DNA from: Xaviernesmea rhizosphaerae
GTDB taxonomy: Bacteria; Pseudomonadota; Alphaproteobacteria; Rhizobiales; Rhizobiaceae
Length of the DNA stretch: 64,000 nt
Assembly: GCF_001938945.1 (NCBI RefSeq)
Contig: NZ_MKIO01000027.1
Coordinates: forward strand, 105,551 to 169,550
Direction of reading: 5' to 3'
In this document: piece after piece, positions 6,562 through 51,902 of the stretch
Layout of the letters: every line of letters begins with the position of its first letter
Numbering within the stretch: the stretch's first letter is position 1
Program-made: the position numbers and the translations under genes
The notes under the pieces: generated by a model
Seen by the model: only the letters and a program-made list of their open reading frames with translations
What the model was told of the DNA's origin: nothing
The model's database searches: none

Positions 6562-9500
6562 ACTCGACGGCGCAGGACAAGCTCTCGGGCGCGCGCACTT
6601 CCGGCTTCTTCGCCTTCTTCATCGATCATCCCGTCGCCACCTTTCTGATCATGGTCGGCATCTTCGTCATCGGGGCGGTCTGCTATCCCTTCCTGCCGGT
6701 CTCGGCCCTGCCGCAGATCGATTTTCCGACGATCCAGATCGAGGCGAGCCTGCCGGGCGCCTCGCCCGATACCATGGCGGCAAGCGTTGCCCAGCCGATC
6801 GAGCAGGCGCTCTCGCGCGTCAGCGGCATCACCGAAATGACCTCCAACAGCTCGCTCGGCACCACCTCCATCACCGTGCAGTTCGCGCTGGACCAGGACA
6901 TCCAGACCGCGGCGAGCGACGTGCAGACGGCGATCAGCGAGGCCTCGGGCTCGCTGCCCAAGGACATGCCGTCGGCGCCGACCGTGCATAAGGTCAATCC
7001 GGCCGATGCGCCGGTCATGCAGCTTTCGGCCACCTCCGATCTCCTGACCTTGCCGCAGCTCGACGAATATATCGAGCGCAACGTCGCCACCCGGATCGGA
7101 CAGGTCTCCGGCGTCGCCTATGTCAATATCGGCGGCAAGCAGAAGCCGGCGATCCGCATCGCCGTCGATCCCGGCCGGTTGGCCCAGGCCGACGTGACGC
7201 TGGAGGATGTGCGCACCGCCATCGGCTATTTGAGCCTCAGCGCGCCCAAGGGCAATATCGACGACCCGACGCGCACCTTTCCCATCACCACCAACGACCA
7301 GATTACCTCTTCGGCCGAGTGGAACGATGCGGTGATTGCCTATCGCAATGGCGGGCCGGTGCGCATTCGCGATATCGGCCGGGCGGTGGACGGCGCCGAG
7401 GACGCCAAGATGGCGCATTGGACCAACGGACAGCGCGGCATTGCGCTCGACGTGTTCCGCCAGCCGGGCGCCAATGTCATCGAGGTCGTCAATGCCATCA
7501 AGGCCCAGCTGCCGGCGCTCCAGGCCGCGCTGCCGCCCTCGATCAAGCTGGAGCTGGTGACGGACCGCACCACGACGATCCGCGCTTCGGTCGAGGACGT
7601 GCAGTTCACCCTCGTGCTGACCATCGGCCTGGTGGTGCTGGTGATCTTCCTGTTCCTGCGCAATGTCAGGGCGACGCTGATCCCGGCCGTCACCCTGCCG
7701 ATCGCGCTGGTGGGCGCGCTGGCGCCCATGTGGCTGCTCGGCTTCAGTCTCGACAATCTCTCGCTGATGGCTCTGGTGGTGGCGGTCGGCTTCGTGGTGG
7801 ACGACGCCATCGTCATGCTCGAGAACATCAGCCGCCATATCGAGGAGGGCGTGGCCCCGATGGAGGCCGCGCGGCGCGGCGCGGGCGAGATCGGCTTCAC
7901 CATCGTCTCCATCAGCCTGTCGCTGATCGCGGTGCTGATCCCCATCCTGCTGCTGGGCGGCATTGTCGGGCGTCTGTTCCGCGAGTTCGCGCTGACCTTG
8001 ACGGTCGCCATCGCGCTCTCCGCCTTCGTGTCGCTGACGCTGACGCCAATGCTCGCCGCGCGCTTCATCCGTGTGGTGCCAAAGGAGGCGCATGGCCGGC
8101 TCTACCGGATGGGCGAGGCCTTCTTCGACGGGCTGCTTTCGCTCTATGCCCGCAGCCTGACGCCGGCAATCCGTTATCGCTACGTGACGCTCGCCATCTT
8201 CCTCGCCACCATCGGGCTGACGGCCTATCTCTTCGTCACCATCCCCAAGGGCTTCTTTCCCGAACAGGACACCGGCTTCATCGCGGGGCTTTCCCAGGCC
8301 TCGCCGGACATTTCCTATAGCGAGATGGCGAAGCTTCAGGAAAAGGTCAGCGCCATCATCCTGAAAGACCCTGCTGTCTACAGCGTGTTCATGGATATCG
8401 GCGGCGGCAATGGCGGCAATGCCATGAACCAGGGCCATGTCAACATCACGCTCAAGCCGCGCGGCGAGCGCGACGCCAGCGCTCGGGAGGTGATCGACCG
8501 GCTGGGCACGGCGCTTAACGCGCAGCAGGGCATCCAGCTGTTCATGCAGTCGGCGCAGGACATCAATATCGGCGCACGCCCTGCGAAAACGCAGTATCAA
8601 TATACGCTGCAGGATGGCGATATCAGCGAACTGGCCGCCTGGTCCGGCAAGATCACCGCGGCCCTACAGGCCATGCCGGAGCTGCGCGATGTCGGCAGCG
8701 ACCGGCAGGCGGAAGCGCCCACCCTTGCCATCCGCATCGACCGTGCCGCCGCCAGCCTCTATGGCGTGCTGCCGGCCACCATCGACGAGACGCTGTACGA
8801 CGCCTTCGGCCAGCGCCAGGTGGCCTCCTATTCCACGCAGACCGATACGTTCCATGTGGTGCTGGAGGTGCTGCCCAATCTCCAGCGCGATATCGCCACG
8901 CTGGACCGGCTCTCCGTGCGGTCCTCGGGCGGCACGCTGGTGCCGCTGTCGGTGGTGGCCAAATGGTCGACCGACGGGGTTTCGCCTGTTTCGATCGCCC
9001 ATCAGGGCCAGTCGCCGGCCGTCACCGTCTCCTTCAATCTGGCGCCCTCGGTGGCGCTGGGGCAGGCGACCAAGGCGATCGAGGCGACGGTGGCGGCGCT
9101 GCATCCGCCAGCCGCGCTGCAGACGAGCTTTTCCGGCAGCGCCCGCGCCTTTCAGGAGTCGCTCTCCACCGTGCCGCTCTTGATCCTCGCCTCGCTCTTC
9201 GTGGTCTATCTCATCCTCGGCGTGCTCTACGAAAGCCTGATCCATCCCTTGACCATCCTGTCGACCCTGCCGTCTGCCGGCCTCGGCGCGCTTCTGGCGC
9301 TCGACTGGGCGGGGCTCGATTTCGGCCTCGTCGGCATGATCGGCGTGATCCTGCTGATCGGCATCGTCAAGAAGAACGGCATCATGCTGGTCGATTTCGC
9401 CATCCAGGCGGAGCGTGAGGGGATGAGCAGCGAGGAGGCGATCGTCAAGGCCGCGCATATGCGCTTCCGCCCGATCCTGATGACGACCATGGCCGCGCTG

Positions 9501-9692
9501 CTCGGCGGCATTCCGCTCGCCATCGGCCATGGCGCCGGATCCGAGCTGCGCCAGCCGCTCGGTTACGCCATTGTCGGCGGCCTGATCGTCAGCCAGCTGC
9601 TGACGCTCTATTCGACACCGGTGATCTACCTCCTGCTCGACGGCTTGCGCCGGCGCCAGCCGGCCCCGCAGGCGGATACGGCAGCCGCCTGA
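6558..9692 (+). CDS. RND family efflux pump permease (MdtC/AcrB-like)
   Basis: A 1044-residue inner-membrane proton-driven efflux transporter of the hydrophobe/amphiphile RND group. The first transmembrane helix is at about residues 16-36 (FIDHPVATFLIMVG). The two halves each show a large periplasmic porter loop, and the proton-relay region is seen at GFVVDDAIVMLENI in helix 4. The C-terminal half repeats the pattern (GIVKKNGIMLVDFAI). Length is standard for the family. Its start overlaps the adaptor stop, so the two are one operon. The MdtB/MdtC-like character is judged from the PFLPVSALPQIDFPTI start; drug range unknown. Confidence 0.93.
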   Translation: MNSTAQDKLSGARTSGFFAFFIDHPVATFLIMVGIFVIGAVCYPFLPVSALPQIDFPTIQIEASLPGASPDTMAASVAQPIEQALSRVSGITEMTSNSSLGTTSITVQFALDQDIQTAASDVQTAISEASGSLPKDMPSAPTVHKVNPADAPVMQLSATSDLLTLPQLDEYIERNVATRIGQVSGVAYVNIGGKQKPAIRIAVDPGRLAQADVTLEDVRTAIGYLSLSAPKGNIDDPTRTFPITTNDQITSSAEWNDAVIAYRNGGPVRIRDIGRAVDGAEDAKMAHWTNGQRGIALDVFRQPGANVIEVVNAIKAQLPALQAALPPSIKLELVTDRTTTIRASVEDVQFTLVLTIGLVVLVIFLFLRNVRATLIPAVTLPIALVGALAPMWLLGFSLDNLSLMALVVAVGFVVDDAIVMLENISRHIEEGVAPMEAARRGAGEIGFTIVSISLSLIAVLIPILLLGGIVGRLFREFALTLTVAIALSAFVSLTLTPMLAARFIRVVPKEAHGRLYRMGEAFFDGLLSLYARSLTPAIRYRYVTLAIFLATIGLTAYLFVTIPKGFFPEQDTGFIAGLSQASPDISYSEMAKLQEKVSAIILKDPAVYSVFMDIGGGNGGNAMNQGHVNITLKPRGERDASAREVIDRLGTALNAQQGIQLFMQSAQDINIGARPAKTQYQYTLQDGDISELAAWSGKITAALQAMPELRDVGSDRQAEAPTLAIRIDRAAASLYGVLPATIDETLYDAFGQRQVASYSTQTDTFHVVLEVLPNLQRDIATLDRLSVRSSGGTLVPLSVVAKWSTDGVSPVSIAHQGQSPAVTVSFNLAPSVALGQATKAIEATVAALHPPAALQTSFSGSARAFQESLSTVPLLILASLFVVYLILGVLYESLIHPLTILSTLPSAGLGALLALDWAGLDFGLVGMIGVILLIGIVKKNGIMLVDFAIQAEREGMSSEEAIVKAAHMRFRPILMTTMAALLGGIPLAIGHGAGSELRQPLGYAIVGGLIVSQLLTLYSTPVIYLLLDGLRRRQPAPQADTAAA

Positions 9693-9720
9693 TCCGGGCG
9701 GCTCTCGTCGCCCCTTCCGT

Positions 9721-9741
9721 TTCCCGCCCGCGCGGCGGGAA
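9721..9741 (+). terminator. GC hairpin after the RND pump gene
   Basis: TTCCCGCC and GGCGGGAA form an 8-bp stem with a 5-base loop 28 bases after the pump stop. No T-run follows, so it is at best a weak or factor-dependent terminator. Confidence 0.4.
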
Positions 9742-9829
9742 GCGCCGCCCATTCCTATGGGATTCCTATTTCTTTGCCGCGCCGCCCGTCTCGAACGCCT
9801 ATGCGCCGCGCGCGATAATCCTGTCCGAC

Positions 9830-10156: not shown

Positions 10157-11860
10157 ATGACCCTCAACGGTTGGCTTCAGATCCTGATCTTCTGCGGGAT
10201 CGTTCTTGCGCTCGTCAGGCCGCTCGGCGGCTACATGACGCGCGTCTTCGCGGGCGAGCGCACGCTTCTCTCGCCGCTCCTTTCGCCCATCGAGCGCGGG
10301 CTTCTGGCGCTGGCGGGCCCCGCCGCGCGTGAGGAGCAGCACTGGACGGCCTATGCCGTCTCGCTGCTCCTGTTCAATCTCTTCGGCGTCGTCCTGCTCT
10401 ATGCGCTGCTGCGGCTTCAGGGCCTGCTGCCCTATAATCCAGCCGGCATGGGCGCGGTCGGGCCGGAGCTTTCCTTCAACACGGCAGTGAGCTTCGTCAC
10501 CAACACCAACTGGCAGAACTATGGCGGGGAGAGCACGCTTTCTTATCTGACGCAGATGCTGGGCCTGACGGTGCAGAACTTCGTGTCCGCCGCCACCGGC
10601 ATGGCGATCGCCATCGGCCTGATCCGTGGCTTCTCGCGGGCGTCGGCCCGGGCGATCGGCAATTTCTGGACCGATATGCTGCGCGCCACGCTGCATATCC
10701 TGCTGCCCTTGTGCATCGTGCTGACCCTCGTCTATGTCGCGCTCGGCGTGCCGCAGACGCTGGGGCCCTATATCGAGGCCACCACGCTGGAAGGCGCCAG
10801 GCAGACCATTGCGCTCGGGCCCGTCGCCTCGCAGCTCGCCATCAAGATGCTCGGCACCAATGGCGGCGGCTTCTTCAACGCCAATTCCGCCCATCCCTTC
10901 GAGAATCCGGACAATCTGTCGAACCTGTTGCAGATGGTGTCGATCTTCGCCATCGGCGCCGCCTTCACCAATGTCTTCGGCCGGATGGTGGGCAATCCGC
11001 GCCAGGGCTGGGCGATCCTCTCGGCCATGGGCATCCTGTTCCTGATCGGCGTCGGCGTGGTCTATGCGGCGGAAGCTTCGGGCAATCCGCTCCTGCAGTC
11101 GCTGCATCTGGCCGGCGGCAATATGGAAGGCAAGGAGGCGCGCTTCGGCATCGCCATGTCCTCGCTCTTCGCCGTCATCACCACGGCCGCCTCCTGCGGC
11201 GCGGTCAACGGCATGCTCGGTTCCTTCACCGCGCTCGGCGGCCTGGTGCCGCTGATCAACATGCAGCTCGGCGAGGTGATCGTCGGCGGCGTCGGCGCGG
11301 GCTTCTATGGCATCGTGCTGTTCATCATCATCGCCGTCTTCGTGGCCGGGCTGATGGTGGGCCGCACGCCGGAATATCTCGGCAAGAAGATCGAGGCCAA
11401 GGAAATGAAGATGGCGGTGCTGGCCGTGCTCTGCCTGCCGCTCGCCATGCTGGTCCTGGTGGCGATCTCCAGCGTGATGCCGTCGGCCGTCGCCTCTATC
11501 GGCACCGCCGGTCCGCACGGCTTCTCCGAGATCCTCTATGCCTATACCTCGGCAGCCGCCAACAACGGCTCGGCCTTCGGCGGGCTCTCGGGCAACACGC
11601 CCTGGTACAACGTCACGCTGGGGCTCGGCATGCTGATGGGCCGCTTCCTGGTGATCGTGCCCGCACTCGCCATTGCCGGCGCGCTGGTGGCAAAGAAGAC
11701 CGTGCCCGCCTCGGCCGGCACCTTCCCCACCGACGGGCCGCTCTTCGTCGGGCTGCTGGTCGGCACCATCGTCATCGTCGGCGGGCTCACCTTCTTCCCC
11801 GCTTTGGCGCTGGGCCCCGTGGTGGAACATCTGGTCGCCGTCGCCGGGGAGACCTTCTGA
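10157..11860 (+). CDS. kdpA: KdpA, K+-translocating subunit
   Basis: A 567-residue polytopic membrane protein that selects and binds K+ in the KdpFABC P-type ATPase. Ten or so hydrophobic helices are visible. The four pore-loop repeats expected of this channel-like subunit can be picked out, including [18 protein letters not shown] and the [20 protein letters not shown] loop. Length is that of the family. It is preceded by kdpF and followed by kdpB after 169 bases with no gene in between. Expression is expected under K+ limitation through KdpDE. Confidence 0.97.
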
Positions 11861-12029
11861 GGCGAAAGGCGCGGGTCTCCCTGCCTCGAGCGGGGACGAT
11901 CCGCGCCGTCCATGCCCCTGCATTCACGAACATGAAGCCGAGGCGCGCCCTCCCGCGCGCCGGTCTCACCCCTTTCCCCTGCCGCGACCGCATCCGGTCG
12001 CCTTTGAAAAAATTCCGCTGGAGTCTCTG

Positions 12030-14078
12030 ATGAGCCAGGCACAATCCGTCAGCATTCTCGACCGGCGCATCCTGCTGCCGGCCGTGGGCGCGGCCTTCCG
12101 CAAGCTCGATCCGCGCACGCTCGCCCGCAATCCCGTCATGTTCGTGGTCGCCACCGTCTCGGCTCTGACCACGCTTCTCTTCCTGCGCGATCTGGCGCGC
12201 GGCGGGCCGGATCTCGGCTTCTCCTTCCAGATCAATCTCTGGCTCTGGTTCACCGTGCTCTTCGCCAATTTCGCCGAAGCGGTCGCCGAAGGGCGCGGCA
12301 AGGCGCAGGCGGATTCGCTGCGCAAGGCCCGCACCGAGACCGAGGCCAAGCGGCTGACATCGGCGACCGGCCGCGATTATGAGCGCGTGCCCGGCACCAG
12401 CCTGAAGGTGGGCGATCTCGTTCTTGTCGAGGCGGGCGACATCATCCCCTCCGACGGCGAGGTGATCGAAGGCGTGGCCTCGGTCAACGAAGCGGCGATC
12501 ACGGGCGAGAGCGCCCCCGTCATCCGCGAATCCGGTGGCGACCGCTCGGCGGTCACAGGCGGTACGGAAGTGCTGTCCGACTGGATCCGCGTGCGCATCA
12601 CCGCGGCGGCCGGCGCCACCTTCCTCGACCGGATGATCTCGCTGGTGGAAGGCGCCGAGCGGCAGAAGACACCGAACGAGATCGCGCTCAACATCCTGCT
12701 GGCCGGCATGACGCTGATCTTCGTTCTGGCCACCGCCACCATTCCGAGCTTTGCCGCCTATGCCGGCGGCAGCATTCCCGTCATCGTGCTGGTGGCCCTG
12801 TTCGTCACGCTGATCCCCACCACCATCGGCGCGCTGCTCTCGGCCATCGGCATTGCCGGCATGGACCGCCTGGTGCGCTTCAACGTGCTGGCCATGTCCG
12901 GCCGCGCGGTGGAAGCCGCCGGCGACATCGACACGCTGCTGCTGGACAAGACCGGTACGATCACGCTCGGCAACCGTCAGGCCACCAGCTTCCGCCCGCT
13001 CAAGGGCGTGACGGAACAGGCGCTGGCCGATGCCGCCCAGCTCGCCTCGCTGGCCGACGAGACGCCGGAGGGGCGCTCCGTCGTGGTGCTGGCCAAGGAG
13101 AAATACGCCATCCGCGCCCGTGACATGGCCAGCCTGAAGGCGATCTTCGTGCCGTTCACCGCCCAGACCCGCATGAGCGGCGTCGATCTCGAGGGCTCGT
13201 CCATCCGCAAGGGCGCGGTGGAGGCGGTGCTCGCGGCCGTCGCCGGCCAGGCCGATGGCGCGGCGGTCAAGGAGCTGCGCGCCATCGCCGACGAGATCGC
13301 CAAGACCGGCGGCACGCCGCTGGCCGTGTCGCGCGACGGGCGGCTGCTCGGCGTCATCGCGCTGAAGGACATCGTCAAGGGCGGCATCCGCGAGCGCTTC
13401 GCCGAACTGCGGCGCATGGGCATCCGCACGGTCATGATTACCGGCGACAATCCGATCACGGCGGCGGCGATCGCGGCGGAGGCGGGCGTGGACGATTTCC
13501 TCGCCCAGGCGACGCCGGAAAACAAGTTGGAGCTGATCCGCGAGGAACAGGCCAAGGGCAAGCTGGTGGCCATGTGCGGCGACGGCACCAATGACGCGCC
13601 GGCGCTGGCCCAGGCCGATGTCGGCGTGGCGATGAACACCGGCACGGTCGCCGCCCGCGAGGCCGGCAACATGGTGGACCTCGACAGCGACCCGACCAAG
13701 CTGATCGAGATCGTCGAGATCGGCAAGCAGCTCCTGATGACGCGCGGCGCGCTGACGACCTTCTCGATCGCCAACGACATCGCCAAATATTTTGCCATCA
13801 TTCCGGCCATGTTCCTGACCTTCTATCCCCAGCTCGGCGTGCTCAACGTCATGGGGCTGGCCACACCGCAAAGCGCCATCCTGTCGGCCATCATCTTCAA
13901 CGCGCTGATCATCATCGCGCTGATCCCGCTCTCGCTCAAAGGGGTTGCCTACCGCCCCGTGGGCGCCGGCGCGCTGCTCTCGCGCAACCTCCTGATCTAT
14001 GGCCTGGGCGGCATCCTCGTGCCCTTCGTCGGCATCAAGGCGATCGATCTCCTCGTCACCGCCATCGGCCTGGCCTGA
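12030..14078 (+). CDS. kdpB: KdpB, P-type ATPase catalytic subunit
   Basis: A 682-residue P-type ATPase that hydrolyses ATP to drive K+ uptake with KdpA. The phosphorylation motif DKTGTIT places the aspartyl-phosphate at D306. The actuator motif is seen as TGESAPV, and the hinge motif as [16 protein letters not shown]. Helices flank these in the usual order. I start at [11 protein letters not shown] because the far longer upstream frame overlaps kdpA out of frame and has no protein character. The N-terminal residues [13 protein letters not shown] are typical of KdpB. The ribosome binding site is weak (GGAG at about 10 bases). Confidence 0.97.
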
Positions 14079-14155
14079 GGTCGGTCCCGCGCGCTTCGCA
14101 GCAAGGGCGCGCTCTCCACGCGTGCCCGTCGACCCTTCTTTCAAGGAATGCTTCC

Positions 14156-14767
14156 ATGTTCAAACAGCTTCGCCCCGCTCTCGTCCTGCTCTTCGCCACC
14201 GCGGCGATCACCGGTCTCGTCTACCCGCTCGCCATGACCGGCATCGCCCAGGCGGTCTTTCCCGCGCAGGCCAATGGCAGCCTGATCGAAAAGGACGGAA
14301 CCGTCATCGGCTCGGCCCTGATCGGCCAGTCCTTCACCAGCCCGCGCTACTTCCACGGCCGGCCCTCGGCCACCACGGGCGCCGACCCGGCCGATGCGAG
14401 CAAATCCGTTCCTCAGCCCTATAATGCCGCCAATTCCATGGGCTCCAATCTCGGCCCCACCAGCAAGGCGCTGATCGACCGGGTGACGGCGGCCACCGCC
14501 GCCGCGCGGGCCGACAATCCGGATGGGGTCTCGGCCGACGTGCCCGCCGATCTCGTCACCGCCTCGGGCAGCGGGGTCGACCCGCATCTGACGCCGCAGG
14601 CCGCCTACTGGCAGGTGGCGCGGGTGGCCAGGGCCCGTGGCCTGGACGAGGCCGCGGTGCGGGCGCTGGTGGACAGCCATATCGAGGCGCGCGAGCTGGG
14701 CGTGCTGGGCGAGCCCGTTGTCAATGTTCTGGCGCTGAACATGGCGCTCGACGCCCTGCGCTCCTGA
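14156..14767 (+). CDS. kdpC: KdpC, K+-transporting ATPase assembly subunit
   Basis: A 203-residue protein with one N-terminal transmembrane helix (about 8-30) and a periplasmic domain. Family signs include [31 protein letters not shown] and [11 protein letters not shown] near the end. KdpC stabilises the KdpFABC complex and has been proposed to raise its affinity for ATP. AAGGAATG precedes the start. It closes the structural part of the cluster: a strong GC hairpin with TTTT lies four bases after its stop. Confidence 0.96.
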
Positions 14768-45116: not shown

Positions 45117-45692
45117 ATGCCTGAGTCCGAACCTGTTTCCACCGCCGCGCCGACGGTCGCCGGCGTCGCGTCCTGCGGGTTGCGCCCGGGTCTGTCGGTG
45201 GTGGTGATGGGCGTCAGCGGCTGCGGCAAGAGCTCGGTGGGCGCCGGCCTGTCCGCGCGCAGCGGACTGCCCTTCATGGAGGGCGACCGGCTGCACCCCA
45301 AAGCAAATGTCGACAAGATGGCCGCCGGTACGCCGCTGACGGATGAGGATCGCTGGCCCTGGCTCGACAGGATCGGCGCGGAGATCCACAAGGCCCAGCG
45401 CGACGGAGCCGCGGTGATCGTCGCCTGCTCGGCGCTGAAGCTGAGCTATCGCGACCGCCTGCGCGCGGCGGCCGGCGGGTCGCTCGCCTTCGTCTATCTC
45501 GAAGGCTCGTTCGAGCTCCTTAAGCAGCGGATGGCCGCGCGCACGGGCCATTTCATGCCCGTCTCGCTGCTGGAAAGCCAGCTGCAGACGCTGGAGTCCC
45601 CGACAGGCGAGCCCGGCGTGGTGACGGTTAATATCGACGCGGCGCTCGACGCAATCATCGAGGCAGCCTGCCTGGGTCTGACAGCGCTTTGA
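45117..45692 (+). CDS. Gluconokinase (GntK-type P-loop kinase)
   Basis: A 191-residue cytoplasmic kinase that makes 6-phosphogluconate from gluconate. Walker A GVSGCGKSS is at 32-40. The family residues EGDRLHPKANVDKMAAGTPL and TDEDRWPWLD are present, and VACSALKLSYRDRLR follows. Its first 25 residues are a nonconserved extension, so the start may lie at a later position, though this ATG has a good ribosome binding site. It ends 18 bases from the convergent sugar operon. GntK with no gluconate transporter nearby. Confidence 0.92.
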   Translation: MPESEPVSTAAPTVAGVASCGLRPGLSVVVMGVSGCGKSSVGAGLSARSGLPFMEGDRLHPKANVDKMAAGTPLTDEDRWPWLDRIGAEIHKAQRDGAAVIVACSALKLSYRDRLRAAAGGSLAFVYLEGSFELLKQRMAARTGHFMPVSLLESQLQTLESPTGEPGVVTVNIDAALDAIIEAACLGLTAL

Positions 45693-45710: not shown

Positions 45711-46643
45711 TCAGCCGCCCTGCCGGCCGACGCGGCGCACCAGCACGGCGGCGAGGATGATGCTGCCGGTGATGATGTCCTGCAGGAAGGTGGAGACGCC
45801 GAGGATGGTCAGCCCATTGCCGATGACGGCGATGATCGCCGCGCCCACCAGCGTGCCCGGCACATTGGCTTCGCCCTCGCGAAAAGCCGTCATGCCGAGG
45901 AAGACGGCGGCATAGGCGGAGAGCAGATAGCCGCCTCCTCCTGTGGGATTGGCCGAACCGATGCGGGCGGTGAGCAGGATGCCGACCAGCGCCGAGAGCA
46001 CGGCCGAGACGGTGAAGGCGAACATGGTGTTGGGCACGATCCGCACGCCGGCAAGCCTTGCCGCTTCCCTGTTGCCGCCAATGGCATAGAGCCGCCGGCC
46101 GATTTCCAATTTGTCGAGCAGCAGCCAGGCGGCGAGTCCGGTGGCGATCAGCCACCAGGTCAAGGTCGGCAGGCCGAACAGCGTGCCGCGGCCGATATCG
46201 CGAAAGCCGGCGGGAATGTCGCCGAACAGCGTGGCGCCCTGGCAGAGCCAGAAGGTGACCCCGCCGATGATGGTGCCGACCGACAGCGTGGCGATGAAGG
46301 ACAGCACCTCGAAACGGGCGACGACGAAGCCGGACAGGGCGCCAAAAGCGGCGGCGGCCAGGAGAACCGCGAGGCAGGCGAGCGGTGGCGGCACGCCGAG
46401 CTTGAAGAGGGTGACTGCGAGAATGCCGCCGAAGGAGACGATCGCCGCCGTCGACAGATCGAACTCGCCCACCGCCATCACCACCGTCGCGCCGATGGCG
46501 ACGATGGCGAGCAGCGTCATCTGCTGGGTGATGTTGATCAGGTTTCCGGCCGAGCCGAACGCGCCGGGCGAGACCAGCGAGAAGGCGGCGATGAGGACGA
46601 GGAGCGCGGCGAGCGTGCCGAACCGTCTGACGAAACCGGTCAT
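45711..46643 (-). CDS. Ribose-type sugar ABC permease (RbsC-like)
   Basis: A 310-residue membrane subunit of a ribose/xylose-type ABC importer (BPD_transp_2 superfamily). About eight to ten hydrophobic helices are present. Recognisable stretches: NITQQMTLLAIVAIGATVVM, GEFDLSTAAIVSFGG and RRLYAIGGNREAARLAGVRI. The gene overlaps its ATPase gene by four bases and is last in the operon. Substrate is a sugar or polyol, identity unknown. Confidence 0.93.
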   Translation of the reverse strand: MTGFVRRFGTLAALLVLIAAFSLVSPGAFGSAGNLINITQQMTLLAIVAIGATVVMAVGEFDLSTAAIVSFGGILAVTLFKLGVPPPLACLAVLLAAAAFGALSGFVVARFEVLSFIATLSVGTIIGGVTFWLCQGATLFGDIPAGFRDIGRGTLFGLPTLTWWLIATGLAAWLLLDKLEIGRRLYAIGGNREAARLAGVRIVPNTMFAFTVSAVLSALVGILLTARIGSANPTGGGGYLLSAYAAVFLGMTAFREGEANVPGTLVGAAIIAVIGNGLTILGVSTFLQDIITGSIILAAVLVRRVGRQGG

Positions 46644-48154
46644 GCTGCGGGATCTTTCCGGGATGCGTGTTGAAAGGCGGCGTCGATGATGCGCGCCGGG
46701 GTCAGCGCCGCGCCGTCGAGCTCGGCCGTGATGCGCCCGCCGGCGAGCACCAGCACGCGCGAGGAGAGCGCGAGCAGCTCGTCCATGTCGGAAGTGGTCA
46801 TCAAAACGGCGGCGCCCGCCTCGGCGAAGCGTCGGGCGAGCGCGTGGATTTCCGCCTTGGCGCCGACATCGACGCCGCGGGTCGGCTCGTCGAGGATCAG
46901 GAGGCGGATCGGCCGGCCGAACCAGCGGCCGAAGAGCAGCTTCTGCTGGTTGCCGCCCGAAAGCGTCAGCGGCCGGTCGAAGGGCGAGCCCATCTTCACC
47001 GCCAGCGCCGCCTGGATCGCCAGCGCCCGGCGCTTCAGCGCGCCAAGCCCCGTCAGTGGCAGGCCGGGCTGGAGCCGCACGGCGGTGAGGTCGGCGATCG
47101 CCAGATTCTCGGCGATCGAACGGGAGGTGATCAGCCCCTCATGGCGGCGGTCCTCAGGCACATAGGCGCCGCCGGCCGCGATCCGGTCGCCGATGCTGCC
47201 GGGCCGCAAGCGCCGGCCGTCCAGCCGGATCTCGCCCTCATCATGGCCGCGCGCACCCCAGACGATCTTCATCAGCGAGGAGCGGCCGGCGCCGACAAGG
47301 CCGTAGAGGCCGAGGATCTCGCCCGAGCGGATCGCGAAGGAGATCCTCTCCTCGCCGGGCCCGAACGGCAGGGCGGAAACGGTGAGCACGGCAGGGCTTT
47401 GCGCCGGCACGGCGCGCGGCGCGGCCGCCAGCTCCTCCCGGCCGGACATGAGGCGCACGAGGCCGGGGCGATCGATTTCGGAAATGGCGCCACTGCCGGC
47501 CGTCGCCCCGTTGCGCAGCACGGTGAAGCGGTCGCAGAGCGCCATCACCTCGTCCAGCCTGTGGGAAATGAAGATCACCGCGACGCCGCGCGCGGAGAGC
47601 CGCCTGACGGCCTGATGCAGCCGCCGGGCCTCGCCATCCGAGAGCGAGGCCGTCGGCTCGTCCATGACGACGAGGCGCGCCGGCGCGCCGGTGAGCGCGC
47701 GGATGATTTCCACCAGCTGCTTCTGGCCCGTGGTGAGCCTTGCGGCGGGCACGTCGAGCGGCAGGTCGGGCGCGATGTCGCGGGCCACCTCGGCAATGGC
47801 CTGCGCCATGGCCCTGCGATCGATGAAGGGGCCGCGCCGGGGATAGCGCCGGCCGACAAAGGCATTTTCCACCGCCGTGAAATGCGGAACCAGGCTCAGT
47901 TCCTGATGGATGAAGCGGAAGCCCAGCGCTTCGGCCTCGGCCACGCCATCGATCGTCACGGGCGTGCCATCCAGCCGGATGGTGCCGGCGTCGGGTCTGA
48001 CGAGACCCGACAGCGCCTTGATCAGCGTCGACTTGCCCGCCCCGTTCTCGCCCAGAAGGCCATGAACGGAGCCGGCTGCGACCTCCAGATCGGCGCCGGC
48101 CAGCGCCCGGGCGCCGCTGAAGCGCTTTTCCAGCCCTCGAATGCTCAAAAGCAC
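46640..48154 (-). CDS. Ribose-type sugar ABC ATPase (RbsA-like)
   Basis: A 504-residue double ABC ATPase. Module 1 has Walker A GENGAGKSTLI, signature LTTGQKQLVEII and Walker B VVMDEPTASLSDGEA. Module 2 has the variant GLVGAGRSSLM, then SGGNQQKLLFGRW and DEPTRGVDVGAK. I propose a GTG start with GAGG eight bases upstream; the longer frame with an ATG further upstream adds 28 residues with no domain character. It lies 172 bases after the binding-protein gene. Cytoplasmic motor of the sugar importer. Confidence 0.9.
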   Translation of the reverse strand: MLLSIRGLEKRFSGARALAGADLEVAAGSVHGLLGENGAGKSTLIKALSGLVRPDAGTIRLDGTPVTIDGVAEAEALGFRFIHQELSLVPHFTAVENAFVGRRYPRRGPFIDRRAMAQAIAEVARDIAPDLPLDVPAARLTTGQKQLVEIIRALTGAPARLVVMDEPTASLSDGEARRLHQAVRRLSARGVAVIFISHRLDEVMALCDRFTVLRNGATAGSGAISEIDRPGLVRLMSGREELAAAPRAVPAQSPAVLTVSALPFGPGEERISFAIRSGEILGLYGLVGAGRSSLMKIVWGARGHDEGEIRLDGRRLRPGSIGDRIAAGGAYVPEDRRHEGLITSRSIAENLAIADLTAVRLQPGLPLTGLGALKRRALAIQAALAVKMGSPFDRPLTLSGGNQQKLLFGRWFGRPIRLLILDEPTRGVDVGAKAEIHALARRFAEAGAAVLMTTSDMDELLALSSRVLVLAGGRITAELDGAALTPARIIDAAFQHASRKDPAA

Positions 48155-48326: not shown

Positions 48327-49238
48327 TCAGGAGCACTTGGCGCCGAGCGTTTCCGGCGTGATCATCACGGCCGGCACATACATTTCGTCCTTGTCGGCCC
48401 TGCCGCCCTTGAGGATCTTGTCCAGCTCTGCGGCGCCCAGTTCCGCCATCTTCGGGAAGTCCTGGCGGAAGGTCGCCTTGTAATGGGTACAGGACTTGAT
48501 CATGTCCACGGCCTGGGCATTGCCGTCGATGCCCATGATGATCAGCTTGGAATCGGGCTTTTCGGACTCGGTTGCCAGCTCCGCGCCGATGCCCGGATCG
48601 TCGAAGGCGGCCCAGACGCCGTCGATCTTGTCGCCATGCTGGCGCAGGATGTTTTCCATGGCCACCCGCCCGTCATCGACGGGGCCGGGAACCTTGACGA
48701 AGTGATCGGCGATCACCTTGATGTCGGGATAGTTCTTCAGCGTGGCGTCGAGGCCGAGCTCGCGCTGGTGCACGCCCGGATGGGCGGAGTGGAAGAACTT
48801 GACGATGTTGCCCTTGCCGCCCATAGCCTTGAACAGCGCTTCCGACAGCTGCGTGCCCAGCTCGAAATTGTTGGAGGTGACGTTGACGGCGACGTTGTCG
48901 CGCTTGGAGCCGTCGAGCGAGATCACCGGAATGCCGGCCTTGGCCGCCATGTCCACCTGATCGCCGACCTGGGCCGGATCGGTGGAGATCAGCACGATCG
49001 CATTGGCCTTGGCGTTGACGGTGTCTTCCATGCGCGAGGCCAGCTGGCCGAAATCATTGCGCGTGTCGATGATGGTCACCGTCCAGCCGCGCTTCTCGCC
49101 CTCGGCCTTGAAGCTCTGCGCCATCTCGTTGGTCGGGATCGAGCTGATATAGGGGGTCAGGATCGTCACATCCGTGGCGAAGGCGGCGCCGGCGCTGAGC
49201 GACAGGGCGAGGGCGGCGGGCAGCAGGGTCTTGATCAT
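48327..49238 (-). CDS. Ribose-type sugar-binding protein
   Basis: A 303-residue periplasmic binding protein of the ribose/galactose (Peripla_BP_4) group. The signal peptide spans about residues 1-21 (LALSLSAGAAFA, cut before TDVTIL). The mature protein begins with the paired-lobe pattern ILTPYISSIPTNEM and has the hinge-lobe stretch GIPVISLDGSKRDNVAVNVTS. Start at MIKTLLPA is backed by AGAGGAA; longer upstream frames overlap the kinase gene. Third gene of the operon after the TrpA-like and kinase genes. Ligand is a sugar or sugar-like molecule. Confidence 0.92.
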   Translation of the reverse strand: MIKTLLPAALALSLSAGAAFATDVTILTPYISSIPTNEMAQSFKAEGEKRGWTVTIIDTRNDFGQLASRMEDTVNAKANAIVLISTDPAQVGDQVDMAAKAGIPVISLDGSKRDNVAVNVTSNNFELGTQLSEALFKAMGGKGNIVKFFHSAHPGVHQRELGLDATLKNYPDIKVIADHFVKVPGPVDDGRVAMENILRQHGDKIDGVWAAFDDPGIGAELATESEKPDSKLIIMGIDGNAQAVDMIKSCTHYKATFRQDFPKMAELGAAELDKILKGGRADKDEMYVPAVMITPETLGAKCS

Positions 49239-49273: not shown

Positions 49274-50797
49274 TCAGCTTGCCGTTTCGGCGGGTTGCGC
49301 ATCGGTGTCGATGATCCCCAGCGGCCGCAGCGCGTCGATGGTCTTGCAATAGGCGTCGAACATGCGGTCGTAGCGCTTGAGCCGCTTCGGGTCGGGCTCG
49401 AACACGCGCTCCACCGAGGTCATGGCCGGCACGGCCTCCTCCAGCGTGGAAAAGGCGCCGACGCCGACGGCGGCGATGATCGCCGCGCCGAGACAGCCGA
49501 CATCCTGATAGGCGAAGCGGTGCAGCGCCACGCCGAGGCAATCGGCGCGGATCTGGCTCCAGAGATCGGAGCGGGCGCCGCCGCCGCCATAAAGCAGGCG
49601 ATCAGGGCGATAGCCGGCGGCCTTTGTCAGTGACTGGAACAGATGGCGCGCCGACAGCGCCACGCCTTCCAGCACTGCCAGCGCGAAGTCCGGCCCGCCG
49701 CTGCGGCTGTCCAGCCCGATGAAGGCGCCGCGAATATCGGCGTCCCAGAGCGGCGCGCGCTCGCCCTCCAGATGCGGCAGGAACAGGATGGGGCGGCCGT
49801 CGCGGTCGGCCCTGGCGGCGAGATCCGCAACCGCGCCGGGCTCGATGCCGGCCGTGCCGCTCCACCAGCGCAACGAGTCCGCTCCGCTCTGCGTCGGCCC
49901 GGCATTGACCACCAGCCCGTTCACCGTGGCGAAGGTGACGACCCCCGGCGCGCCGATGCGCTCAGCCCCCGCCAGCGCCAGGATCTCGCTGGTGCCGCTG
50001 ACATACATGCCCTGTCCGGGCGAGAAGACGCCGCAGCCGAAGAGATTGCCCCAGGCATCCATGGTGCCGACGGTGACGGGCACGCGGCGGGGATGGCTGC
50101 CGAGCTGCATCTCGCCGGCGATATCGGTGAAAAACTTCAGTGGCGGCAGGCGCTCGGCCGCGCCCTCCACCCGCGCGATCAGCGGCGCGATATAGGCGAG
50201 ATCCAGCCCCACCTGACCGAAGGAGGCGATCGGGTCGGCCACGGCCTGCCCGGTGAGCTTCAGCAGGCAGTAATCCTTGGGCGAAAGCACATGGGCCACG
50301 CGCGGCCAGAGATCGGGATGGTGCTTCCTGAACCACATCATCTTCGCCAGCGCATGGCTCGCGCCGATCGGCATCTCGGCGCCCCACCAGGCCTGCTTCT
50401 CGGCGGGCGTGATCGTGGCGTCCAGCGCCTGCGCCTCGCGTGCGGCGCGCACATCCTGCCAGACGATGGCCGGGGCCAGAGGCGTGCCGGCGGCATCGAC
50501 GAAGACATCCGTGTTTACCTGACTGCACAGGCCGACGGCGACGACACGGCCAGGATCGCGGCCGACAAGCAGCCCGTCAATGGCGTCGCGCACGCCATCC
50601 AGCCAGTGCTGCGGGTCCTGTTCCACCCGCCCCGGGCCGGGGCGCAGGGTGGGATAGGCGCGGCTCCAGTGGTCGACGACCGTGCCGCCGAGCGTGAACA
50701 GCCCCGCCTTCACGGCGGTGGAGCCGATATCGAATCCGATCACATAGGCGTCGCGTGTGGCATCCTCTCGGGCAGTGCCGGGGGCGAAATCAGGCAT
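49274..50797 (-). CDS. FGGY family carbohydrate kinase (xylulokinase-like)
   Basis: A 507-residue kinase that phosphorylates a sugar or sugar alcohol. The first actin-like domain starts with YVIGFDIGSTAVKAGLF. The conserved substrate-site region is AIVWQDVRAAREAQ. The second domain begins near the FGGY signature-like part and holds LYGGGGARSDLWSQIRADCL, near the ADP site. The start ATG overlaps the end of the TrpA-like gene by eight bases. Exact substrate unknown; xylulose-type is one choice among glycerol, xylulose and other FGGY members. Confidence 0.9.
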   Translation of the reverse strand: MPDFAPGTAREDATRDAYVIGFDIGSTAVKAGLFTLGGTVVDHWSRAYPTLRPGPGRVEQDPQHWLDGVRDAIDGLLVGRDPGRVVAVGLCSQVNTDVFVDAAGTPLAPAIVWQDVRAAREAQALDATITPAEKQAWWGAEMPIGASHALAKMMWFRKHHPDLWPRVAHVLSPKDYCLLKLTGQAVADPIASFGQVGLDLAYIAPLIARVEGAAERLPPLKFFTDIAGEMQLGSHPRRVPVTVGTMDAWGNLFGCGVFSPGQGMYVSGTSEILALAGAERIGAPGVVTFATVNGLVVNAGPTQSGADSLRWWSGTAGIEPGAVADLAARADRDGRPILFLPHLEGERAPLWDADIRGAFIGLDSRSGGPDFALAVLEGVALSARHLFQSLTKAAGYRPDRLLYGGGGARSDLWSQIRADCLGVALHRFAYQDVGCLGAAIIAAVGVGAFSTLEEAVPAMTSVERVFEPDPKRLKRYDRMFDAYCKTIDALRPLGIIDTDAQPAETAS

Positions 50798-51677
50798 CAA
50801 GGCCGCTCCTCATCTCGCGCAGCAATAGCCGCAGCGCCCCGGGCCCGGCAAGAGCGGCGCGCAGCACCTGAGAGCCGACGACCACGCCATCGGCGCCGAG
50901 ATCGCGCGCGGCCCGCGCCTGCTCCCCGGTGGAAATGCCGAAACCGAGCATGACAGGCGCTTTCACGCCTTCGGTGCGCAGCGACGCGATGCGCCCGCTG
51001 TTTTCAGGGTCGAGCCGCGCACGCGGGCCGGTCGGCCCGTCATGGGCCTGCAGCATCACATAGAAGCCCGCCTGCCGCGCCCGCATCAAGGCGGAGGGCG
51101 AGGGCGGCAGCGCCACGAAGGCGGAGAGCGCGGTGCCGGCCGAAAGCGCCGAGGCTTCCAGCCGGGCGGCAAGCGGATCGTTAGGGCGCGAGACGGCGAG
51201 CAGGCTGTCGATGCCGCGCCAGAGGCTTGTGTCGGAAAGCCCCGGATGGGCCGGATCCACATAGGTCATCAGCAGGGTGCGGGGCGGGTTTGGCAGGCGC
51301 GCGAGCCGGTCGAGCACGGCATCGAGATCGCCGCGCCAGCGGGTGCGGTCGGCGCGCGCCATGGAGGCGCGCACATCCGCCCCGTCGAGAAAGGGATCGG
51401 GCGCGGCCATGCCGATCTCCAGAACGTCCACGCCTTCGCCGGCATAGAGATCCAGGCAGTCGAGCGCGATCGCGGGATCGCCGAGGGGAAAGTAGCAGCT
51501 GAGCAGGGGGCGGCCTGTAGAACTTGCGGACAGGGGGGCGGGCAGGGTGGCCTGCGCCGGCTCCCTGCTGTCTGCAGCCGGCAGGGAAGGCTTTGCGTCA
51601 GCCTCGGCGGCGCTCGCGCCTGCCGCCGCTTCCTGCCCCGTGCTCGCCCCGCTCGTGCCTGCCTTGTCGATGCTCAT
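50790..51677 (-). CDS. TrpA-like TIM-barrel enzyme (possible sugar-phosphate aldolase)
   Basis: A 295-residue protein whose C-terminal 240 residues resemble tryptophan synthase alpha chain. The catalytic acids are both kept: E87 in VDVLEIGMAAPD matches TrpA Glu49, and D98 in FLDGADV matches Asp60, with the same spacing of 11. The phosphate-binding region APVMLGFGISTGEQARAARD is present. The first 55 residues are a low-complexity Ala/Ser/Pro-rich extension. There is no trpB or other trp gene nearby; it is the first gene of a kinase/ABC sugar operon and overlaps the kinase by eight bases. Retro-aldol cleavage of the phosphorylated substrate, as TrpA does, is my inference. Start uncertain: an upstream ATG at 51698 adds seven residues. 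Confidence 0.82.
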   Translation of the reverse strand: MSIDKAGTSGASTGQEAAAGASAAEADAKPSLPAADSREPAQATLPAPLSASSTGRPLLSCYFPLGDPAIALDCLDLYAGEGVDVLEIGMAAPDPFLDGADVRASMARADRTRWRGDLDAVLDRLARLPNPPRTLLMTYVDPAHPGLSDTSLWRGIDSLLAVSRPNDPLAARLEASALSAGTALSAFVALPPSPSALMRARQAGFYVMLQAHDGPTGPRARLDPENSGRIASLRTEGVKAPVMLGFGISTGEQARAARDLGADGVVVGSQVLRAALAGPGALRLLLREMRSGLDA

Positions 51678-51902
51678 TCTGCGTCTCACCTGCTGCATCC
51701 TGCCTGATATCGCGATCGCCCGCCGCCGTCACCGGCGATCACGGGCGGATGCGGCGTCGTCCTGTGATTTTCATGTCTGGAGCTAGGCCGGGAAGGGCCC
51801 CATGTCTGCGGATCGACCGCTTTTGGCCGGGCTTGCGCTTGACCGCGGCTCCCTGGAATGATGGTTGCGGCCGGATCACGACACGCGAACGGGAGCACCT
51901 CC

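Follow-up and report, generated by a model that had tools for sequence, protein, structure and literature searches.

A tryptophan synthase alpha relative at the head of a bacterial kinase/importer operon: a candidate system for uptake and cleavage of an indolyl-polyol

Why should a relative of the tryptophan synthase alpha subunit (TrpA) open an operon for a kinase and an importer? The question is raised by a stretch of 64,000 nucleotides from Xaviernesmea rhizosphaerae (contig NZ_MKIO01000027.1, positions 105,551 to 169,550), referred to as the window in the following. The gene, here termed TrpA1, stands first in a minus-strand operon and is followed by genes for an FGGY kinase, a binding protein, an ATP-binding cassette (ABC) ATPase and a permease (Table 1), the kinase ATG at 50797 overlapping the TrpA1 stop by 8 bases. 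This layout had been described in the original prediction and was confirmed from the frames and domains. The prediction further proposed a catabolic re-use of TrpA, by which an imported and phosphorylated substrate is cleaved to glyceraldehyde 3-phosphate and a small aldehyde or ketone. The genomic evidence assembled here makes such a re-use probable; the small aldehyde or ketone is less supported, as a linked oxygenase cluster, the sequence likeness of TrpA1 to plant BX1, and a TrpB-like/TrpA2 pair in related operons probably point to indole instead. We consider it moderately probable that the operon serves to import, phosphorylate and cleave an indolyl-polyol, probably indole-3-glycerol, to indole, which would then be oxidised.

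TrpA1 is encoded by an open reading frame of 295 amino acids with an ATG start, and an in-frame ATG further upstream would result in 302 amino acids. The protein belongs to the Pfam family Trp_syntA (69.5 bits, E 2.8e-19, cut-off 27) and falls below the equivalog cut-off of the NCBIfam trpA model TIGR00262 (73.3 bits, cut-off 102.35). As originally predicted, both catalytic acids and the phosphate-binding end are kept: the catalytic pair is E87 and D98 (Glu49 and Asp60 equivalents, spacing 11 residues), and these two positions as well as T216-G217, G245-F246-G247 and G268-S269 are invariant in an alignment of 13 TrpA1 proteins from the window and related loci. The acids and the phosphate-site glycines and serine were also retained in 13 of 13 rows of a residue table, in which the Thr183 column is misaligned for TrpA1; the separate alignment has the invariant Thr-Gly there.

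The window genome (5.5 Mb, 48 contigs) contains a separate trpA (300 bits, contig C37) beside the only trpB found, so that TrpA1 is neither the sole trpA nor a neighbour of trpB. In a tree of 54 rows, the 13 TrpA1 proteins formed a single clade (support 100/99), 12 second TrpA proteins of the related operons (TrpA2) formed a clade of their own (100/100), and 28 anabolic TrpA proteins lay apart; the tree has long branches, the window row is of odd letter make-up, and L028 was omitted for want of a good trpA frame. A duplicate of the anabolic trpA gene was ruled out by the sub-cut-off TIGR00262 score, the separate trpA and the clade of its own. The phylogeny and the separate trpA thereby spoke against the doubt raised with the original prediction, namely that the protein might group with functional TrpA in a genome without another trpA. 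A further trpA of 296-322 bits occurs in 13 of 14 genomes examined. In the exception, G441, no normal-scoring trpA was found; one stretch of this genome (L086, C26:258500-278400) has an AT skew of 0.5-0.8, no sensible genes and a weak TrpA match, and the contig looks corrupted.

When solved structures were searched by sequence, two BX1 entries came out on top (79 and 78 bits, the next at 57 bits). The structure model of TrpA1 (mean predicted local distance difference test, pLDDT, 87) had BX1 1tjr as its best Foldseek match, and 1tjr also came first in a fold ranking (Z 29.7, TrpA chains at 28.4 and below). BX1 is the stand-alone indole-3-glycerol-phosphate lyase of maize, as described in sections of PMC12930369. 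TrpA1 shares with this plant enzyme the TrpA fold and the Glu49/Asp60 pair, and it has no TrpB partner within the window operon. In contrast to BX1 it is bacterial, lies inside an importer/kinase operon, is presumably catabolic, and is 27% identical to it. In addition, the second BX1 entry, 1rd5, ranked only 34th (Z 26.6) among TrpA chains and fits TrpA1 no better than an ordinary TrpA, which weighs against a BX1-like assignment; therefore, the fold alone cannot choose between BX1 and TrpA. The first ~50 residues of the window copy have no counterpart in most relatives, and their block means in the model are 41-59.

Among 61 genomes, the window's own and its relatives, one besides the window genome carried a close TrpA1 homologue (G014, 67% identity). 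When the G014 protein was searched against 397 genomes of the order, the matches were the window's own copy, a homologue in G317 (62% identity) and a remote, weak one in G368 (36%); with the TrpA1 alignment as query, 398 genomes of the phylum gave a match at E 1e-25 or better only in G000, the window genome. A tblastn search of plasmids with the G014 protein gave 15 records, all below 60% identity, with 33% at the top. A scan of GTDB species contigs resulted in 12 relative loci out of 268 pattern-matching stretches; the scan relied on two peptide patterns, and therefore diverged members may be overlooked. The hosts are nearly all alphaproteobacterial and comprise two Martelella, two Rhizobiales, a record labelled Marinicella sp. 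W31, an Ancalomicrobiaceae metagenome-assembled genome (MAG), Devosia, two Pacificibacter, Phaeobacter, Rhizobium and Mesorhizobium. Identical matches show G014 to be the source of locus L047, and G317 gave L051, each being counted once among the 13 operon genomes. All 12 loci share the order TrpA1, kinase, binding protein, ATPase, permease, TrpB-like and TrpA2, and in 11 of them an AraC gene lies ahead of TrpA1. The W31 record (L050, NZ_JAQOMR010000002.1) bears the name of a gammaproteobacterial genus, yet identities of 79-98% link its operon to the one in M. limonii, and its TrpA1 and TrpA2 also group with those of this species in the tree; either the label is wrong or the operon has been transferred. 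Its kinase (10713-12182) and ATPase (13225-14736) genes are split over several frames, reflecting either real decay or sequencing error.

The last two genes of the full-length operon provide a further pointer to indole. The TrpB-like protein carries K87Y, by which the lysine binding pyridoxal phosphate (PLP) is lost, H86N, H115N and D305A or D305S in all 12 loci and E109D in 11, Phaeobacter retaining the glutamate (we take the numbering to be that of the Salmonella protein). The G014 representative, the one protein scanned, passed the trpB equivalog model (406.7 bits, cut-off 392.45) and reached 359 bits against the reconstructed ancestral TrpB 5ey5. The ratio of nonsynonymous to synonymous substitution rates (dN/dS) was 0.03-0.09 in three pairs, and the gene therefore looks maintained by selection. 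At locus L034, both the TrpB-like protein (8621-9808) and TrpA2 (7771-8619) exceeded the NCBIfam trpB and trpA cut-offs; hence, model-based annotation would call the lysine-less protein tryptophan synthase beta. In plants, a noncatalytic paralogue of the tryptophan synthase beta subunit (TSB-like), changed at two key positions, activates the alpha subunit (TSA) to release free indole, according to portions of PMC12727527. The bacterial protein is likewise a TrpB homologue with catalytic residues lost and in this respect fits the description of a TSB-like pseudoenzyme. Plant E190 and D386 presumably equal E109 and D305, changed here in 11 and 12 of 12 proteins, respectively. The bacterial protein differs in that it has also lost the PLP lysine and is accompanied by a TrpA2 within the same operon, both genes being missing from the window. 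By analogy, a role of the TrpB-like protein as TrpA activator parallel to that of plant TSB-like appears plausible. Several points weigh against this assignment or against the indolyl-polyol reading in general: the plant change is D386E, whereas bacterial D305 is replaced by Ala or Ser; in all 12 loci, TrpA2 carries Ala in place of the phosphate-site Gly234; the structure model of the TrpB-like protein was poor (pLDDT 55) and was not used; and one reaction does not account for two TrpA-like genes.

A link to indole also emerged from the remaining gene content of the operon genomes. A StyA-type oxygenase (PF17885) is encoded in 11 of the 13, including that of the window, compared to 12 of 296 other genomes in the order sample (13 of 297 with the window genome), where the others were not each shown to lack the operon, and to 5 of 59 other relatives (7 of 61, two of which are operon genomes). 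Co-occurrence with the operon gave Fisher p values of 1.9e-12 and 9.6e-8, respectively, with no phylogenetic correction. In G001, a genome of the same genus as the window's, both TrpA1 and StyA are missing. In all 11 StyA-bearing operon genomes, the oxygenase gene lies beside genes for a flavin reductase, a short-chain dehydrogenase/reductase (SDR) and an AraC regulator, and this cluster adjoins the TrpA operon in four of 12 loci (L049, L053, L056 and L057). The only AraC gene detected beside StyA in M. limonii (L079) belongs to the operon type, and M. mediterranea has an AraC gene of this type (61% identical) next to StyA instead of next to TrpA1.

Gene clusters of this kind are known from indole degradation: the iif cluster, with the layout iifR, D, B, C, oxidises indole, as set out in parts of PMC4577076 and PMC6221969. 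The joint presence of the four gene types in 11 of 11 genomes resembles the iif and ind clusters, from which the StyA cluster differs in that most genomes carry it at a distance from the TrpA operon. The StyA protein of the window genome is nearest to the solved structure 7z4x (586 bits), which we take to be an indole monooxygenase, and reached only 126 bits with the styrene monooxygenase 3ihm. A salicylyl-CoA-type monooxygenase/reductase, the architecture of which is shared by aminobenzoyl-CoA enzymes, shares its 20 kb with StyA in three of 14 stretches searched (L071, L072 and partly L075), all three from operon genomes; none was found in the StyA stretch of the window genome or in nine operon loci searched. 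For anthranilate, portions of PMC6221969 report a route via 2-aminobenzoyl-CoA. Tryptophanase exceeded its cut-off in one of the 13 operon genomes, G317, which lacks StyA.

Not all observations favour tying the operon to indole oxidation. StyA is missing from two of the operon genomes, G317, a MAG, and G435, that of the W31 record; the operon genomes are not independent, and three Rhodobacterales genomes among them have no matched baseline. The StyA cluster of the window genome is located on another contig, and three StyA loci from genomes that yielded no TrpA1 (L080-L082) share the same layout, therefore the cluster does not need the operon. The resemblance to iif clusters was judged by gene layout, and the two StyA proteins tested scored 208 and 215 bits, below the styrene-monooxygenase equivalog cut-off of 550.

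The occurrence of the StyA cluster without the operon would also fit an ordinary sugar or polyol being imported, phosphorylated and cut by TrpA1 to glyceraldehyde 3-phosphate and a small aldehyde or ketone, in which case the indole cluster would be incidental. FGGY kinases and ribose-type importers normally belong to sugar systems, and the TrpA-like/FGGY pair of G368 lies beside an SDR gene with no TrpB-like protein recognised in the 20 kb read. We nevertheless regard a sugar substrate as quite improbable, as StyA both co-occurs with and adjoins the operon and the full operon carries the TrpB-like protein and TrpA2. In addition, according to parts of PMC12930369, the indole ring is protonated and tautomerised in the Glu/Asp mechanism of TrpA and BX1, from which we infer that release of a non-aromatic group would have to follow a different mechanism.

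The G368 pair itself (L045, 9404-12609) consists of the distant TrpA-like gene and an adjoining FGGY kinase gene, 37% identical to the window kinase; the SDR and, further along, a SorC-like regulator were named from reading the translation. The window kinase scores 285 bits against the G368 kinase and 166 against the best solved kinase, the two values stemming from different programs. A TrpA-like protein of the G368 type was found in one of 397 genomes, G368 itself. Pairing of a TrpA-like protein with an FGGY kinase is seen in two settings. The best family model for the window kinase is xylulokinase, below its equivalog cut-off, and the other kinase models listed also remained below theirs.

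If the leaving group is aromatic, it may be a close analogue of indole, such as a substituted indole or another N-heteroarene, or the two TrpA-like enzymes may cleave a longer indolyl-polyol one after the other. The active-site details in which these enzymes differ would be in line with this, and skatole is a substrate of a related group E oxygenase, as stated in parts of PMC13101512. Since the StyA protein of the window genome is so much closer to 7z4x than to 3ihm and nothing points directly to a substituent, we consider such an analogue unlikely. C-mannosyl tryptophan was set aside as a substrate because TrpA chemistry acts at indole C3.

The window operon adjoins no AraC, TrpB-like or TrpA2 gene. 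Elsewhere in the window genome, a trpB search gave the anabolic trpB only, a weak third TrpA match remained under the cut-off with no TrpA2 found, and only the AraC of the StyA cluster matched the operon type (31%). Upstream of TrpA1, an element TATCCACATCCTGCA was present with 0-2 mismatches in 12 of 12 relatives, starting 63-172 bases before the TrpA1 start used, also in M. mediterranea, where the AraC gene lies at StyA. No copy at up to 3 mismatches was found in the corresponding stretch of the window (Table 1), which contains only the 8-base core CATCCTGC on the opposite strand (51696-51703). The absence of both element and AraC looks like joint loss. An element with 3 mismatches to TATCCACATCCTGCA is present close to where the AraC gene begins in four StyA clusters (L069 12495, L071 7714, L072 12243 and L075 12427); the idea of a regulator site common to operon and StyA clusters was dropped, as a 3-mismatch likeness is too weak.

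These absences raise the question whether the window copy is a decaying remnant, in which TrpA1 and the kinase are no longer used as in the relatives. The low-confidence N-terminal extension would fit decay, as would a higher dN/dS of TrpA1, at 0.24-0.29 in window pairs versus 0.10-0.13 between full operons; other window operon genes are, compared with relatives, also somewhat above the closest full-operon pair. The ratios are simple pairwise counts, some with dS near or past saturation. The window TrpA1 looks less constrained than that of full operons, which also weighs against the indolyl-polyol reading. However, all five operon frames are open over their full length, dN/dS did not exceed 0.29 in the window pairs computed, the binding protein has remained close to that of L047 (Table 1), and the StyA cluster is retained. 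A remnant therefore seems very unlikely to us, and a reduced form of the operon for indolyl-polyol cleavage is preferred. The place where relatives carry TrpB-like and TrpA2 is occupied by a gluconokinase gene.

Table 1. Features of the TrpA1 operon and its flanks; positions are those of the window.
Feature	Position	Strand	Remarks
TrpA1, TrpA-fold lyase (predicted)	50790..51677	-	Glu49/Asp60 equivalents kept; nearest solved sequence BX1; residues 1-50 a low-confidence extension
FGGY kinase	49274..50797	-	FGGY_N/FGGY_C; 86% identical to L047 kinase
Ribose-type periplasmic substrate-binding protein	48327..49238	-	Peripla_BP_4; start set by comparison; 95% identical to that of L047
Sugar-type ABC ATPase	46640..48154	-	ABC_tran; start set by comparison; 81% identical to that of L047
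Sugar-type ABC permease	45711..46643	-	BPD_transp_2; final operon gene in the window
GntK-type gluconokinase	45117..45692	+	flank outside the operon; convergent, 18 bases past the permease
Stretch upstream of TrpA1	51678..51857	-	without element TATCCACATCCTGCA

According to the pathway we propose, the ribose-type ABC importer would take up an indolyl-polyol, most likely indole-3-glycerol, and the FGGY kinase would phosphorylate the terminal hydroxyl of the polyol, yielding indole-3-glycerol phosphate or a close analogue. Without a partner subunit, like BX1, TrpA1 would then perform a Glu/Asp retro-aldol cleavage to indole and glyceraldehyde 3-phosphate. The latter would enter glycolysis, and indole would be passed towards anthranilate by the cluster of StyA-type oxygenase, flavin reductase and SDR. 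In full operons, TrpA2, activated by the TrpB-like protein without PLP lysine, may constitute a second lyase freeing indole without forming tryptophan; the window copy, having apparently lost AraC, TrpB-like and TrpA2, would depend on TrpA1 alone. The logic of import, FGGY phosphorylation and aldol cleavage is that of the sugar operons of the fucose, rhamnose and autoinducer-2 (AI-2) types, from which the window operon differs in that its aldolase is a TrpA relative and neither a class I nor a class II aldolase. One point weighs against the substrate proposed: among the papers listed by searches of open-licence PMC, none presented free indole-3-glycerol as a substrate occurring in nature, and a passage of PMC5041120 mentions indolylglycerol solely as its phosphate.

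More tentatively, the operon as a whole may be a bacterial catabolic tryptophan-synthase-like system, in which uptake of indole-3-glycerol and phosphorylation by an FGGY kinase are combined with a BX1-like lyase, a TrpA activated by a TrpB pseudo-subunit, and indole oxidation. It would parallel plant BX1 and TSB-like within one operon, the window representing a reduced form. No description of such an operon was found among the papers listed by searches of open-licence PMC, as judged largely by titles. Should the proposal hold, the final step of tryptophan synthesis would have been turned to degradation, with a natural bacterial TrpB pseudoenzyme as likely activator, and genes of the system would be annotated by models as trpA and trpB even though the TrpB-like protein is without the lysine required to make tryptophan. 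Indole-3-glycerol or a relative would then be an environmental nutrient for these bacteria, and a natural stand-alone lyase as well as a natural deregulated TrpA would be on offer for indole production.

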